This document shows, one piece after another, positions 29,584-34,084 of a DNA stretch of 64,000 nucleotides (position 1 is the stretch's first letter; every line of letters starts with the position of its first letter). Position numbers and translations under genes: made by a program. The stretch covers positions 62,001 to 126,000 of the forward strand of contig NZ_JADMNM010000001.1 of assembly GCF_016461955.1 (NCBI RefSeq), in the 5' to 3' direction. Below the pieces are notes generated by a model. The model did no database searches. It saw nothing but the letters and a program-made list of their open reading frames with translations, and had not been told where the DNA came from. Origin of the DNA: Qipengyuania sp. YIM B01966 (GTDB lineage Bacteria; Pseudomonadota; Alphaproteobacteria; Sphingomonadales; Sphingomonadaceae).

Positions 29584-30615
29584 CTAATCCCCCGCCTGCT
29601 CCATCAGCCCGTGCTTGCGGATCGCGTGGCGTAGCTGATCGTAGCTGAGGCCGAGCGCCTTGGCGGTCTGGCGCTGGTTCCAGCGATGTCGCCCCAGCGC
29701 ATGTTCGAGAATGGCGCGCTCATGCGCATCGACCGCGCTGCGCAGATCGTCGATCTGGTCGAACGCGGGTGCAGTTGCGGCCGTGCCGGGCGCTGCACCC
29801 TCGCTCTCGGCCGGTTTGCGCGTGGCGGGTTCGGCTGGTTTCCACGGGCTGTCGAACGGGTCGAACTGGACGTGGCCGACCGGCTCGTCCCAACTGCCCC
29901 AGCGATAGACCGCGCGTTCGATGACATTGCGCAATTCGCGGACATTGCCCGGCCAGGCATAGTCCTCCAGCTGCGACTGGACATGGCCGGCGAAACCCGG
30001 CCAGCCGTCCCAGCGCAATTCCGCCGCCATCCGCCGTCCAAAATATTCGGCCAGCACGCCGACATCCCCTTCGCGCACGCGCAACGGCGGCAGGGTGATG
30101 ACCTCGAAGCTCAGCCGGTCGAGCAGGTCGGCGCGAAACCTGCCCTGATCGGCCAGGCGCGGCAGATCCTCGTTGGTGGCGGCGACGATCCGCACATCCA
30201 CCCGCAGCGGGCGCGAGGCACCGATCCGCGTCACCTCGCCATATTCGACCGCGCGCAGCAGCCGCTCCTGCGCCCCCATCGACAGCGTCGCCAGTTCGTC
30301 GAGGAACAGCGTCCCCTTGTCGGCTTCCTCGAACCTTCCCGCGCGCGCTCTGGTAGCGCCGGTGAAGGCGCCGGCCTCGTGGCCGAACAGTTCGGCCTCG
30401 ATCAGGCTTTCAGGCAGCGCGGCGCAGTTCATGGTGACGAGCGGTTCGTCCCACCGCGAGGACAAGCGATGCAGGCGTTCGGCGATCAGTTCCTTGCCTG
30501 TCCCGCGCTCGCCGATCACAAGCACCGGGCGCGAGAGCGGCGCCGCGCGGCTGGCCCGCTCGACCGCATCGAGAAACGCGCCCGATTGGCCGATAAACTG
30601 AGTTTCCCGCTCCAT
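29584..30615 (-). CDS. pspF: PspF-like sigma-54 activator of the psp operon
   Basis: A 343-residue AAA+ enhancer-binding protein without a receiver domain, as in PspF. Walker A 'GERGTGKE' is at 35-42, the sigma-54 contact loop 'GAFTGA' at 82-87, Walker B 'GTLFLDE' at 101-107, and a Fis-type helix-turn-helix at the C terminus ('RQTAKALGLSYDQLRHAIRK'). The start at 30615 ('MERETQFIGQSG') matches the family; 80 upstream codons are non-conserved and cover the divergent promoter. In E. coli PspA inhibits PspF until membrane stress releases it, and the divergent arrangement here fits that circuit. Confidence 0.93.
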   Translation of the reverse strand: MERETQFIGQSGAFLDAVERASRAAPLSRPVLVIGERGTGKELIAERLHRLSSRWDEPLVTMNCAALPESLIEAELFGHEAGAFTGATRARAGRFEEADKGTLFLDELATLSMGAQERLLRAVEYGEVTRIGASRPLRVDVRIVAATNEDLPRLADQGRFRADLLDRLSFEVITLPPLRVREGDVGVLAEYFGRRMAAELRWDGWPGFAGHVQSQLEDYAWPGNVRELRNVIERAVYRWGSWDEPVGHVQFDPFDSPWKPAEPATRKPAESEGAAPGTAATAPAFDQIDDLRSAVDAHERAILEHALGRHRWNQRQTAKALGLSYDQLRHAIRKHGLMEQAGD

Positions 30616-30694: not shown

Positions 30695-30709
30695 TGGCAC
30701 GCCCCTTGC
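30695..30709 (+). promoter_or_regulatory. Sigma-54 promoter of the psp operon
   Basis: TGGCAC-N5-TTGC is a full match to the -24/-12 consensus (GG at 30696-30697, GC at 30708-30709). It is 33 bp before the first ORF and divergent from pspF, so transcription should start near 30721. PspF sites would lie in 30616-30690. Confidence 0.92.
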
Positions 30710-30741
30710 TGATAGGTGAACATCCAATCTGGAGGGTGACA

Positions 30742-30900
30742 ATGTTTGACCGTCAATTCCGCCAAATCCGTCTGGGACAGGCTGCCATGGCCAGCACTGC
30801 GGCGATGTTCCTGTTTGTGGTGCTGAGCGCGCAGATCGCGGCCGAACCTGCCCACGCCGCGCCGGCGTCGCAGGGCGCGCTGATCGTGGAGTTGGCATGA
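30742..30900 (+). CDS. 52-residue signal-peptide-like ORF leading the psp operon
   Basis: First ORF after the sigma-54 promoter, with a GGAGGGTGAC ribosome site just before ATG 30742. Product: 'MFDRQFRQIRLGQAAMASTA', then the hydrophobic stretch 'AMFLFVVLSAQIAAEPAHAA', ending 'PASQGALIVELA'. It reads as a short membrane segment followed by an Ala-His-Ala signal-peptidase-like site, so it may give a tiny periplasmic peptide or stay as one helix. The stop overlaps the next ATG (ATGA). I know no named family, but its position makes it part of the membrane-stress response. Confidence 0.6.
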   Translation: MFDRQFRQIRLGQAAMASTAAMFLFVVLSAQIAAEPAHAAPASQGALIVELA

Positions 30901-31748
30901 GCGCGCCCGACGATTTCGACCATCGGCTGACCCCTGAACGGCGCCCGGCCTCGCGGCTGGACGCCGAGGTCGAACGGCTGCGCCGCAGCCCGACGCCCAC
31001 TCAGGGGCGCCCCGATCCCGCTTTCGACACCTTCAACACCGGAGCCGCCTTCATGGGCATTTTCAACCGCGCACGCGACATTTTCGCGGCCAATTTCAAC
31101 GAGCTGCTCGACAAGGCTGACGATCCGGCGAAAATGATCCGGATGATCATCCTCGAGATGGAGGAAACGCTGGTCGAAGTCCGCGCCAGCGCCGCGCGGA
31201 CAATTGCCGACCAGAAGGAAATGCACCGCCACACGGTCAAGCTTGACAAGCTGCAGGCCGACTGGGCCGACAAGGCGCAACTGGCGCTGAGCAAGGATCG
31301 CGAGGATCTCGCCCGCGCGGCGCTGGTCGAGAAAAAGAAGGCCGGCGACATGGCCGACCAGCTCAAGCAGGAAATCGCCGTGCTGGACGATGCGCTGCGC
31401 GCCTACGAGCAGGATATCGAGAAGCTGCAAGTGCGCCTGCGGGAAGCGCGCAGCCGGCAGACCGCCATTGCGGCGCGGCTCGAAAGCGCGGAGAACCGCG
31501 TCAAGCTGCGCACGCTGCTCTCAACCGAGCGGGTGGACGAGGCACTGAGCCGGTTCGACCAGCTCGAACGGCGGGTCGATTACGCCGAAGGCCGCGCCGA
31601 TGCGATGAGCATCGCCGATGGCCGCACCGGCACGCCGAGCCTGGCTGACGAGATCGCCGCGCTCGAAGGCGCCGATGCGATCGACGATGAACTCGCGGAA
31701 ATGAAACGCGCGCTCGGCAAGGGCGATGCAGACAAACAGGAGGGCTGA
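30897..31748 (+). CDS. pspA: Phage shock protein A (PspA/IM30 family), with possible N-terminal extension
   Basis: A peripheral membrane coiled-coil protein that forms oligomers on stressed inner membrane and restrains PspF. The PspA body starts at 'MGIFNRARDIFAANFNELLD' and continues with long coiled coils ('ALSKDREDLARAALVEKKKA'). Two starts are possible. ATG 30897 overlaps the preceding stop, has GGAG 6 bp upstream, and adds 52 charged residues ('MSAPDDFDHRLTPERRPASR...'). ATG 31053 has GGAG 9 bp upstream and gives the family's usual N terminus (231 residues). The long form is annotated; the short form may be the main product, and its amphipathic N-terminal helix is the membrane-binding part in known PspA. 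Confidence 0.9.
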   Translation: MSAPDDFDHRLTPERRPASRLDAEVERLRRSPTPTQGRPDPAFDTFNTGAAFMGIFNRARDIFAANFNELLDKADDPAKMIRMIILEMEETLVEVRASAARTIADQKEMHRHTVKLDKLQADWADKAQLALSKDREDLARAALVEKKKAGDMADQLKQEIAVLDDALRAYEQDIEKLQVRLREARSRQTAIAARLESAENRVKLRTLLSTERVDEALSRFDQLERRVDYAEGRADAMSIADGRTGTPSLADEIAALEGADAIDDELAEMKRALGKGDADKQEG

Positions 31749-31751
31749 ACG

Positions 31752-32054
31752 ATGGACGGCTTTGAAGTCATTGGCGTGCTGGGTGTGGCCATCGGCCTGC
31801 CGTGGCTGATCATGCACTATATCACGCGTTGGAAGACCGCCGCCACCATCACGCAGGACGACGAGGTACTGCTCGACGAGCTCTACCACCTCGCTCGCCG
31901 GCTGGACGAGCGGATGGAAACGGTCGAACGGCTCGTCGCCAGCGACAATCCCGAATTCCGCCCTGCCCGCCTCGTCCACGACCATGAGATCGACAACCAG
32001 AAGCTGCGCGAGCTCGATCGCCTGCTCGCCGAGAAGAAGGGAACCCGCGCATGA
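31752..32054 (+). CDS. pspB: PspB-like membrane protein
   Basis: A 100-residue protein with one N-terminal helix ('VIGVLGVAIGLPWLIMHYIT') and a cytoplasmic coiled coil. The 'LARRLDERMETVERLVASDNPEFRPA' part matches the PspB leucine-zipper motif ('RLxxRIETLERIL...P.WR'). A further ~30-residue charged tail is longer than in E. coli PspB (74 residues). PspB and PspC sense envelope stress and bind PspA. It is 3 bp after pspA and overlaps pspC by 4 bp. Confidence 0.85.
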   Translation: MDGFEVIGVLGVAIGLPWLIMHYITRWKTAATITQDDEVLLDELYHLARRLDERMETVERLVASDNPEFRPARLVHDHEIDNQKLRELDRLLAEKKGTRA

Positions 32055-32431
32055 CCCGCACGCAGCACACCACGCTTTACCGCGACAAGCAGAATGCGAA
32101 GCTGATGGGCGTCTGCGCCGGGATTGCCGATTATACCGGGGTCAACGCGCTGTGGGTGCGGCTGGGCACGGTGTTCCTCACCATGGCGTCGGGCGGGGCG
32201 ACCATCCCGTTCTATTTCCTCGCCGGCATTCTGCTCAACAAGAAGCCCGAGCATCTCTATATCGACACCAGCGAACGCAATTACTGGCAGGGCGTGCGGC
32301 AAAGCCCGCAGCGCGCGGCGCGTGAAATCCGCGCCCGGTTCCGCGACATCGACCGCCGCCTGGCCGAGGTCGAAACCTATTACGTGACCAGCAATCCGCG
32401 CCTGTCGGCCGAAATCGACCGGCTGCGCTGA
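32051..32431 (+). CDS. pspC: PspC-domain envelope stress sensor
   Basis: A 126-residue PspC. The conserved domain 'YRDKQNAKLMGVCAGIADYTGVNALWVRLG' is followed by a membrane helix ('GATIPFYFLAGILLN') and a C-terminal coiled coil ('FRDIDRRLAEVETYYVTSNP'). The last part resembles the PspB zipper and may pair with it. It starts inside the pspB stop (4-bp overlap). Confidence 0.92.
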   Translation: MTRTQHTTLYRDKQNAKLMGVCAGIADYTGVNALWVRLGTVFLTMASGGATIPFYFLAGILLNKKPEHLYIDTSERNYWQGVRQSPQRAAREIRARFRDIDRRLAEVETYYVTSNPRLSAEIDRLR

Positions 32432-32465
32432 GCGCCGGATCAACCACTTACAAGGGGGTTTTATC

Positions 32466-32774
32466 ATGGAAGGTGTAATGGCGCTGTCGATCCCGATCCT
32501 CGCGCTGATGATCCCGTTCTTCGCGATCTGGACCAAGCACAAGGAACGGATTGCAAAGGCCACGGTCAATGTGACTGCCGAACAGACCGCGGAGCGAGCG
32601 GCACAATATGCCAGCCAGATCACCGCGCTGGAGGACCGGGTCCGCGTCCTCGAACGGATCGTCACCGACAAGGGCTATGATGTGGCGACGCAGATCGAGG
32701 CGCTGCGCGATCAGCGCCGCGTAGATGATAATGCGGGCGTCGCGCTCGACTTTGCGAGCAAGGAGCGGGTGTGA
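32466..32774 (+). CDS. Small membrane-anchored coiled-coil protein, PspB paralogue 1
   Basis: A 102-residue protein: an N-terminal helix ('MALSIPILALMIPFFAIWTK'), a charged linker, then 'ALEDRVRVLERIVTDKGYDV'. The last segment matches the PspB zipper of the gene at 31752. It has its own ribosome site (AAGGGGG before ATG 32466) after a 34-bp gap. Its stop overlaps the next ATG (TGATG). No family name can be given with certainty; it probably joins the Psp complex. Confidence 0.75.
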   Translation: MEGVMALSIPILALMIPFFAIWTKHKERIAKATVNVTAEQTAERAAQYASQITALEDRVRVLERIVTDKGYDVATQIEALRDQRRVDDNAGVALDFASKERV

Positions 32775-33112
32775 TGGAGCTTTCGGAAATCATCCCCTAT
32801 CTGGGCTATATCATCGCCGGCGCCTTTACGCTGGGCGCCGCCGGGATCATCGCCTCGGTCCACACGACCAGGCTGAAGATCAAGAATGGCTACCCGCTCG
32901 AAGGGATGTGGGGCCAATCGCTCAAGCCGGGCATGACCAGCGACGCGCAAAGCCGCGTCACCCTGCTGACGCAGGAGAATGCCGAACTGCGGGCCGAACT
33001 GGGCTCGGTCAAGGACCGGCTCGCCAATGTCGAGCGGATCGTCACCGATGGCGGCTACCGTCTGGGCGCCGAGATCGAACAATTGCGGATCAGCGAAGGA
33101 GCACGCCAATGA
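32774..33112 (+). CDS. Small membrane-anchored coiled-coil protein, PspB paralogue 2
   Basis: A 112-residue protein with an N-terminal helix ('EIIPYLGYIIAGAFTLGAAGIIA'), a ~45-residue linker ('LKIKNGYPLEGMWGQSLKPG') and the repeated zipper 'VKDRLANVERIVTDGGYRLG'. It shares 'ERIVTDxGYxxxxxIExLR' with the preceding paralogue. Overlapping start and stop codons on both sides suggest tight coupling. Confidence 0.75.
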   Translation: MELSEIIPYLGYIIAGAFTLGAAGIIASVHTTRLKIKNGYPLEGMWGQSLKPGMTSDAQSRVTLLTQENAELRAELGSVKDRLANVERIVTDGGYRLGAEIEQLRISEGARQ

Positions 33113-33366
33113 GCTTCTGGACAGCGATGGTCATCATCGTCGCCATCTGGGCGGCGGTCGAAGCCTACAAGGCGCGGCAGGGTATCGTGACGGACTGGAG
33201 CGGCAATGAACGGCTCGAACGCCCCGCCGCGCAGGTTGACGAGGCCGCGCAACGCGAGCTCGCTGAACTACGCGAGCGGGTCAAGGTGCTCGAACGGATC
33301 GCCACCGAAGATCGCGAAGCGCGCCGGCTGAGCCACGAGATCGAGGAATTGCGCGAACGGCCCTGA
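33109..33366 (+). CDS. Small membrane-anchored coiled-coil protein, PspB paralogue 3
   Basis: An 85-residue protein: an N-terminal helix ('MSFWTAMVIIVAIWAAVEAY'), then a coiled coil 'LAELRERVKVLERIATEDRE'. It matches the PspB zipper, is closest in length to E. coli PspB, and has an ATGA overlap with paralogue 2. Confidence 0.78.
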   Translation: MSFWTAMVIIVAIWAAVEAYKARQGIVTDWSGNERLERPAAQVDEAAQRELAELRERVKVLERIATEDREARRLSHEIEELRERP

Positions 33367-33395
33367 GCCGCCGCGTTCTGGACCGGAGGCCGCCC

Positions 33396-33629
33396 ATGGA
33401 CCCGCTGATGATCATCGCCGCCACTTGCATCGTCGGCCTCGCCATCGTCGCGCTGGCCGCGCTGCAAGGCTGGCGCGATTGGGTGGCGCTGAAGCGCGAG
33501 GAGCTGGAACGCGGCGCTGTGCCCTCCCCGCGTGAGCCGACCACGCCCGCCGGCGCGCGGATCGAACTGGCCGATCTGCGCGAACGGGTCCGCAAGCTCG
33601 AAGCCATCGCCAGCGGCGTCGATCTCTGA
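33396..33629 (+). CDS. Small membrane-anchored coiled-coil protein, PspB paralogue 4
   Basis: A 77-residue protein: an N-terminal helix ('MIIAATCIVGLAIVALAAL'), then a Pro-rich linker and the terminal zipper 'LADLRERVRKLEAIASGVDL'. It is preceded by a GGAGG ribosome site. It is the last member of the psp operon as far as spacing shows; sufE follows after 38 bp. Confidence 0.75.
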   Translation: MDPLMIIAATCIVGLAIVALAALQGWRDWVALKREELERGAVPSPREPTTPAGARIELADLRERVRKLEAIASGVDL

Positions 33630-33667: not shown

Positions 33668-34084
33668 ATGCGCCCGCTTGCCGATATCGCCGAGGAATAT
33701 GACTTCCTCGATCCGGACGAACGCTATCGCCTGCTGATCGAGCTGGGCCGCGAGCTCGAAGCCATGCCCGACGCGCTCAAGACCGACGCGACGCTGGTGC
33801 GCGGCTGTTCGGCACAGGTATGGGTCTATCCGACCGGCGATGCCGGCAAGCTCCACTACCTGGCCGACAGCAACGCGGCGATCACCAAGGGAATCGTCGC
33901 GCTGGTGGTGGCTGCGGTGCAGGACAAACCGGCGGCAGACATCGCCGCGCTCGACATTGCCGAATTGCTGGCCCCGTTCGACCTCAAGAACCAGCTTTCG
34001 TCCAATCGGACGCAGGGGCTGCCCAACATGATTGCGCTGGTGCAGGACCACGCCCGGCGCATTTCAGCCGGCGATGGCGGATGA
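33668..34084 (+). CDS. sufE: SufE-family sulfur acceptor
   Basis: A 138-residue protein that takes sulfur from the SufS cysteine desulfurase for Fe-S cluster assembly. The active Cys is in 'LVRGCSAQVWV' (about residue 45), and 'SNRTQGLPNMIALVQDHA' is the conserved C-terminal motif. No suf genes are adjacent. Its stop overlaps the YbaN-like ATG by 4 bp. Confidence 0.92.
   Translation: MRPLADIAEEYDFLDPDERYRLLIELGRELEAMPDALKTDATLVRGCSAQVWVYPTGDAGKLHYLADSNAAITKGIVALVVAAVQDKPAADIAALDIAELLAPFDLKNQLSSNRTQGLPNMIALVQDHARRISAGDGG

Follow-up and report, generated by a model that had tools for sequence, protein, structure and literature searches.

Why does a psp operon carry four further genes for small membrane proteins, and are these genes copies of pspB? 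PspA is a bacterial relative of ESCRT-III, and to our knowledge its recruitment to damaged membrane and the sensing by PspB and PspC are still open questions. We analyzed a 64,000-nucleotide stretch of DNA from Qipengyuania sp. YIM B01966 (the window), in which the psp genes are followed by an array of four genes, named g1–g4. Psp loci of the Erythrobacter/Sphingomonas family (the family) were compared with it; the relatives retrieved with g2 place the host close to Erythrobacter/Porphyrobacter.

Layout of the psp locus

The psp locus of the window is of the classical type, with a divergent pspF, a sigma-54 site, pspA, pspB and pspC, followed by g1–g4 on the same strand. The features are listed below.

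29584–30615, minus strand: pspF, sigma-54 enhancer-binding activator (Pfam Sigma54_activat, E=1.7e-60, and HTH_8)
30695–30710, plus strand: sigma-54 (-24/-12) promoter, TGGCACGCCCCTTGCT, an exact match to TGGCACN5TTGCW with 0 mismatches
30742–30900, plus strand: small ORF of 52 aa, operon gene 1, with one hydrophobic segment
30897–31052, plus strand: in-frame N-terminal extension of PspA with the motif SRLDxEIExLRRSPTPT; the frame is open from 30897
31053–31748, plus strand: pspA core, from an internal start (TIGR02977, E=2.5e-80)
31752–32054, plus strand: pspB (PF06667, E=2.8e-19; TIGR02976, E=1.5e-22)
32051–32431, plus strand: pspC (TIGR02978, E=5.5e-36, over the cut-off); its C-terminal tail, ...RRLAEVETYYVTSNPRLSAEIDRLR, resembles the array proteins
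32466–32774, plus strand: g1, array type A; one TM, an AAQYA segment and a PspB/PspC-like module
32774–33112, plus strand: g2, array type C; one TM, a KIKNGYPLEGMWG juxtamembrane segment and the module; the frame is open from 32771
33109–33366, plus strand: g3, array type E; a TM starting MSFWTA and the module
33396–33629, plus strand: g4, array type F; one TM, ending in ADLRERVRKLEAIASGVDL without a tail
33668–34084, plus strand: sufE-like gene (Pfam SufE, E=4.5e-35), adjoining the array

pspF and pspA are divergent in 35 of 36 family loci, and a similar sigma-54 site precedes pspA in 34 of the 36, including the window. The stop of the 52-aa ORF (30742–30900) overlaps the start of long pspA (ATGA). 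A Pfam search with this ORF returned no family, and in many relatives the sigma-54 site and pspA are likewise separated by a comparable small ORF. On the other side of the array come the sufE-like gene and then DUF454 genes. In 33 of 36 family loci a sufE-like gene is close to the array or 3′ of it, which makes this a conserved neighborhood; that of the window (33668–34084) is probably a neighbor of the array, outside the system.

The gaps pspC/g1, g1/g2, g2/g3 and g3/g4 are 34, -1, -4 and 29 nt. A first-pass annotation of this DNA had described the four genes as coupled; they are tightly spaced and run in one direction, but only g1/g2 and g2/g3 overlap. No sigma-54-like site was found inside 55.9 kb of array DNA from the 36 family loci, and one was found in 119.9 kb of the named loci. 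Between pspC and g4 of the window, no forward sigma-70-like site was found. Separate promoters within the array were rejected on the absence of internal sigma-54-like sites in the 36 loci and of forward sigma-70-like sites in the window. The layout of g1–g4 is compatible with membership in the Psp regulon under the PspF/sigma-54 promoter. The earlier placement of the genes under one sigma-54 promoter is thus borne out at the level of DNA motifs, by the perfect site at 30695–30710 and by the lack of any internal promoter-like site seen.

The four ORFs begin at 32466, 32774, 33109 and 33396, as first annotated, and each encodes a single N-terminal hydrophobic helix, as was also claimed; hydropathy gave no second one. 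Positive charge after the TM in types A, C and E predicts a cytoplasmic helix. The AF2 model of g1 is a single helix (2–89) with a pLDDT of 76 and a low pTM of 0.31. Compared with near relatives, dN/dS was about 0.25 for g1 and g2 and 0.2–0.75 for g3 and g4. The array genes are under purifying selection.

Relation of the array to PspB and PspC

The curated PspB cut-offs are 25.6 bits for PF06667 and 51.7 bits for TIGR02976. g1 was under both, at 12.8 and 20.3 bits respectively, and g2–g4 gave no PspB match at E≤1. None of g1–g4 reached any Pfam or NCBIfam cut-off or matched the PspC domain PF04024. The top NCBIfam matches of g1 were PspB (20.3 bits) and the PspC tail (18.3 bits), and that of g2 was the PspC tail (E=0.006). 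In other genomes, the best array relative matched TIGR02976 with E=3e-10. The array sits 3′ of pspC, not between pspA and pspC, and the true pspB is at 31752.

For profile-profile comparison, profiles were built from the 36 family loci, and reversed alignments were used as decoys. Types A, B, C and E matched each other with a probability of 98–99.9%, often over much of their length including the TM; the type E profile (g3) gave 99–99.6% against types A, B and C. The same four types matched PspB at 52–96%, the PspC tail at 5–95% and PspA at ≤3%. Decoys were mostly <10%, with a maximum of 36%. When PspB was compared directly with the PspC tail, the probability was only 0.3–10%. g1–g3 are nearer to one another than to PspB. 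By these profiles, the types of g1–g3 are true paralogs and the array is intermediate between the PspB and PspC tails. The type F profile (g4) matched type E at 95% and type A at 78%, and PspB and PspC at about 2% or less. g4 had been counted among the PspB-related zippers, and no PspB or PspC link was detectable for it.

The motif had been given as (L/V)xxRVxxLERI(V/A)(T/S). This core is present, but the full array motif is longer, (L)xxRVxxLERI(V/A)TD...LxxEIExLR, and g4 has only the helix half, with LEAIASGVDL as its last residues. The core LxxRVxxLERI is both PspB-like and PspC-like. The end TD...LxxEIExLR matches PspC alone, up to the last residue of PspC. The PspC of the window carries the motif at its C-terminus too (...VETYYVTSNPRLSAEIDRLR), and the C-terminal end of PspC is ...NPRLSAEIDRLR in the family versus ...RLERELRALED in the outgroup. 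The array proteins are not plain PspB copies, since the end of their module is PspC-like. The first-pass annotation had grouped g1–g4 with PspB as five related zippers of one kind; this grouping is not supported in that form, as the genes belong to distinct old subfamilies, the module ends as in PspC, and PspC itself is in the set.

Could the four proteins be generic one-TM coiled coils that are merely co-transcribed with psp and have converged with PspB and PspC on a short heptad helix? The module is short (22–42 columns) and coiled-coil-like, scores are low, bZIP models match 8 of 90 array members and ZapB models 3 of 90, and orphans occur elsewhere. However, the decoys were mostly low, as given above, and in a blind test of 18,950 NCBIfam families against the 90 members at E≤0.01, PspC matched 26 (best 2.7e-5) and PspB 25 (best 3e-10). 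The next unrelated family matched 5 of 90, so that PspB and PspC each lead the counts five to one. An array model made without PspB was also searched against whole genomes of the class (241) and the phylum (249), two overlapping sets. Its matches were the family itself, orphans of this kind and, after these, weak ones; in array-less genomes, most of the weak matches were PspB or PspB-like genes adjacent to psp genes. The conserved positions TD, EI and LR also go beyond the heptad positions, and two genomes retain an array without pspB. We therefore consider such convergence improbable. As a full explanation, a generic coiled coil is largely refuted by the decoys and blind searches for types A, B, C and E, but not for type F (g4). 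The relation suggested by the first-pass annotation thus extends beyond a generic coiled coil for three of the four genes, g1–g3. At the level of profiles, the comparisons establish that the C-terminal module of types A, B, C and E (g1–g3) is homologous to the PspB core and the PspC tail. A search for solved structures of PspB or PspC relatives gave none useful.

In another alphaproteobacterial family, one locus (L136) has a one-TM protein after pspC with a clear PspC tail (PspC, E=1.1e-6), adjoining a second PspB-like gene (E=3.4e-11). The tail has thus probably been reused on one-TM proteins more than once.

Subfamilies and dependence on PspA

Array types were assigned by signatures first and then by tree. 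BLAST clustering, tried as a grouping, merged types B, C and E and was replaced. In the tree, types B, C and F each form a single clade across genera, and A and E nearly do; clade C holds 31/31 members with a support of 0.90 and clade F 31/31 with a support of 1.0. The usual gene order is A-B-C-(A)-E-F, E and F closing the array. Monophyly across genera and this usual order indicate that the family has long had the array and that the set of the window (A, C, E, F) is reduced. The array spans at least five old subfamilies in the Erythrobacter/Sphingomonas family. The survey of sphingomonad psp loci proposed with the first-pass annotation found the array throughout: P0003 matched 36 of 36 sampled family genomes, whose psp loci have 2–7 array genes, and 77 named psp loci have 2–9 each.

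PspB was present in 287 of 299 family genomes and missing in 12. Nine of these 12 have neither PspA nor the array, and the array is absent in all nine genomes without PspA. In another PspB-less genome (G623) the locus breaks at a contig end before pspC, and PspB may merely be cut off. L032 has PspB nowhere in the genome and a tail-less PspC of 88 aa, and keeps two array genes; a PspF homologue with 59% identity lies elsewhere in this genome. L189 has pspA-pspC-array without pspB. Together, the nine PspA-less genomes, L032 and L189 suggest that the array goes with PspA and can apparently persist without PspB, the latter in two genomes.

Several similar proteins lie outside the family array. At L041 (4212–4484), the C-terminal module occurs in an orphan one-TM protein whose gene lies directly 3′ of one named by eye as rpoD-like. 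Further orphan one-TM proteins occur outside the class (L163–L175). Away from psp, L166 (1185–1734) and L134 (1243–1725) each have two similar one-TM proteins in tandem; one of these loci is outside the class, the other in a different alphaproteobacterial family. In a family genome, L038 (4228–4617) encodes a soluble zinc-ribbon-like protein, apparently TM-less, with an array-core-like stretch (RVSTLETIATDPAERTA).

Since similar one-TM proteins are found away from psp in other families, the module need not imply a PspA partner. The array might even descend from an older orphan one-TM family, present in alpha- and gammaproteobacteria, which entered psp a single time and then multiplied there, and an original function unrelated to PspA might persist. 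The orphans in other families (L041) and outside the class agree with this origin, as do the MNPFEMV start common to type E and several orphans and a single copy within the psp operon of L044, outside the family (PspC-tail match, E=7e-5). However, trees of these short proteins place the orphans unreliably relative to the array types, and the proposal is about origin rather than present function. We regard it as very improbable.

Possible roles and known Psp systems

PspA carries the LxxEIExLR motif as well, in its conserved N-terminal extension. The first 52 residues of long PspA contain SRLDAEVERLRRSPTPT, and in 72 aligned sequences of the extension three positions, R/E/R, are invariant. A crude Nei-Gojobori estimate from non-independent pairs gave a dN/dS of 0.27 for the motif versus 0.61–0.76 for its flanks. 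All of 71 relatives have GGAG 9–12 nt 5′ of the internal pspA start (31053), which makes production of short PspA very probable. Long PspA would be made provided the upstream start (30897) is used. The PspA motif matched the tails of array types B, C and E at 68–86% (decoys <1%), type A at 26% and the PspC tail of the family at 65% (decoy 20%). This likeness covers 12–23 columns and could be convergence. It is also conceivable, though we hold it doubtful, that LxxEIExLR is a docking code common to PspC, the array and the PspA extension, that long PspA and the membrane tails compete for one site, and that the array provides exchangeable membrane inputs to PspA.

In E. coli, the leucine zipper of PspC is required for PspA binding and psp induction (PMC3068692). 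In Yersinia, the C-terminal cytoplasmic domain of PspC binds PspA in the on state (PMC5596341). If these accounts apply here, the simplest reading is that the array consists of membrane-anchored copies of a docking tail. By this analogy, we suggest with a probability of roughly 55% that the array proteins serve as additional adaptors in the inner membrane, docking on PspA, PspC or PspB. The PspF/sigma-54 psp operon of sphingomonads has grown by a set of paralogous one-TM inner-membrane proteins. In types A–E, each protein has its own TM head and a predicted cytoplasmic helix ending in the PspB/PspC-tail module (LERIVTD...LxxEIExLR), which may act like the enterobacterial PspB/PspC tails and bind PspA and other tails. 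The adaptors might then bring PspA to the inner membrane, free PspF, or adjust PspB-PspC via mixed oligomers. Differing TM heads could receive differing stress or lipid inputs, and long PspA, which has this tail motif as well, could set the threshold by competing for the site.

The module homology, the family-wide spread, the dependence on PspA and the survival without pspB or the PspC tail count for these adaptors; the last argument, that of replacement, rests on two genomes. Against them count the short, coiled-coil-like module, scores of g1–g4 under the cut-offs, the tail-less g4 and the orphans away from psp. The PspB zipper of E. coli, moreover, is reported to act on ArcB, and PspB-PspA binding was not seen.

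The main rival is that array proteins are PspA-dependent effectors and not sensors, that is, one-helix proteins that are co-induced with PspA and act as scaffolds or stiffen the membrane. They would anchor PspA rods or stabilize the membrane and leave the PspB-PspC-PspF switch untouched, as an enlarged equivalent of PspD/PspG. The array is always 3′ of pspC and missing without PspA, and its high and variable copy number (2–9) suits dosage or scaffold use. L032, which keeps the array though pspB and the PspC tail are gone, is explained at least as well by effectors as by adaptors. However, it is precisely the signaling tails of PspB and PspC that the module matches, and the existence of five old subfamilies, each with a head of its own, points to differing roles. 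We judge the effector role rather unlikely.

Across the family, the presumed sensor tail is repeated in as many as nine membrane proteins whose heads differ. Some members dropped PspB or the PspC tail, which offers natural variants, along with a short motif, for finding the binding partner of the tail. A search of largely open-access literature found no description of sphingomonad psp arrays, and the multi-slot array, the PspC-type tail and the PspA motif are apparently new. Ravi et al. (2024, PMC11237479) report PspB duplicates in psp operons (for example AOL22920.1) and a fusion of PspC with a divergent PspB at its C-terminus. In the text searched, the duplicates take up one line, and nothing was found on a multi-slot array, a PspC-type tail, subfamilies, evidence from gene loss or a PspA extension.

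Like the array proteins, PspB (PF06667/TIGR02976) has one N-terminal TM, a cytoplasmic helix, a RIxxLERI-type core and a place in the psp operon, and some type A members match it near full length (L012, E=8.1e-8). However, PspB has DxExPxWR after the core, whereas the array has TD...LxxEIExLR; the array also coexists with true PspB in nearly all genomes, and g1–g4 are below the PspB cut-offs. The PspC tail (TIGR02978 positions about 71–121) shares with the array the core and a terminal helix up to the C-terminus, but the array proteins have one TM only and no PF04024 domain. PspD and PspG of enterobacteria are small, co-regulated accessory Psp proteins, as the array proteins are small and co-located. 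However, no sequence relation to them was seen, and neither was among the Pfam/NCBIfam family matches. Compared with the textbook system, sphingomonads probably have more routes from membrane damage to PspA.
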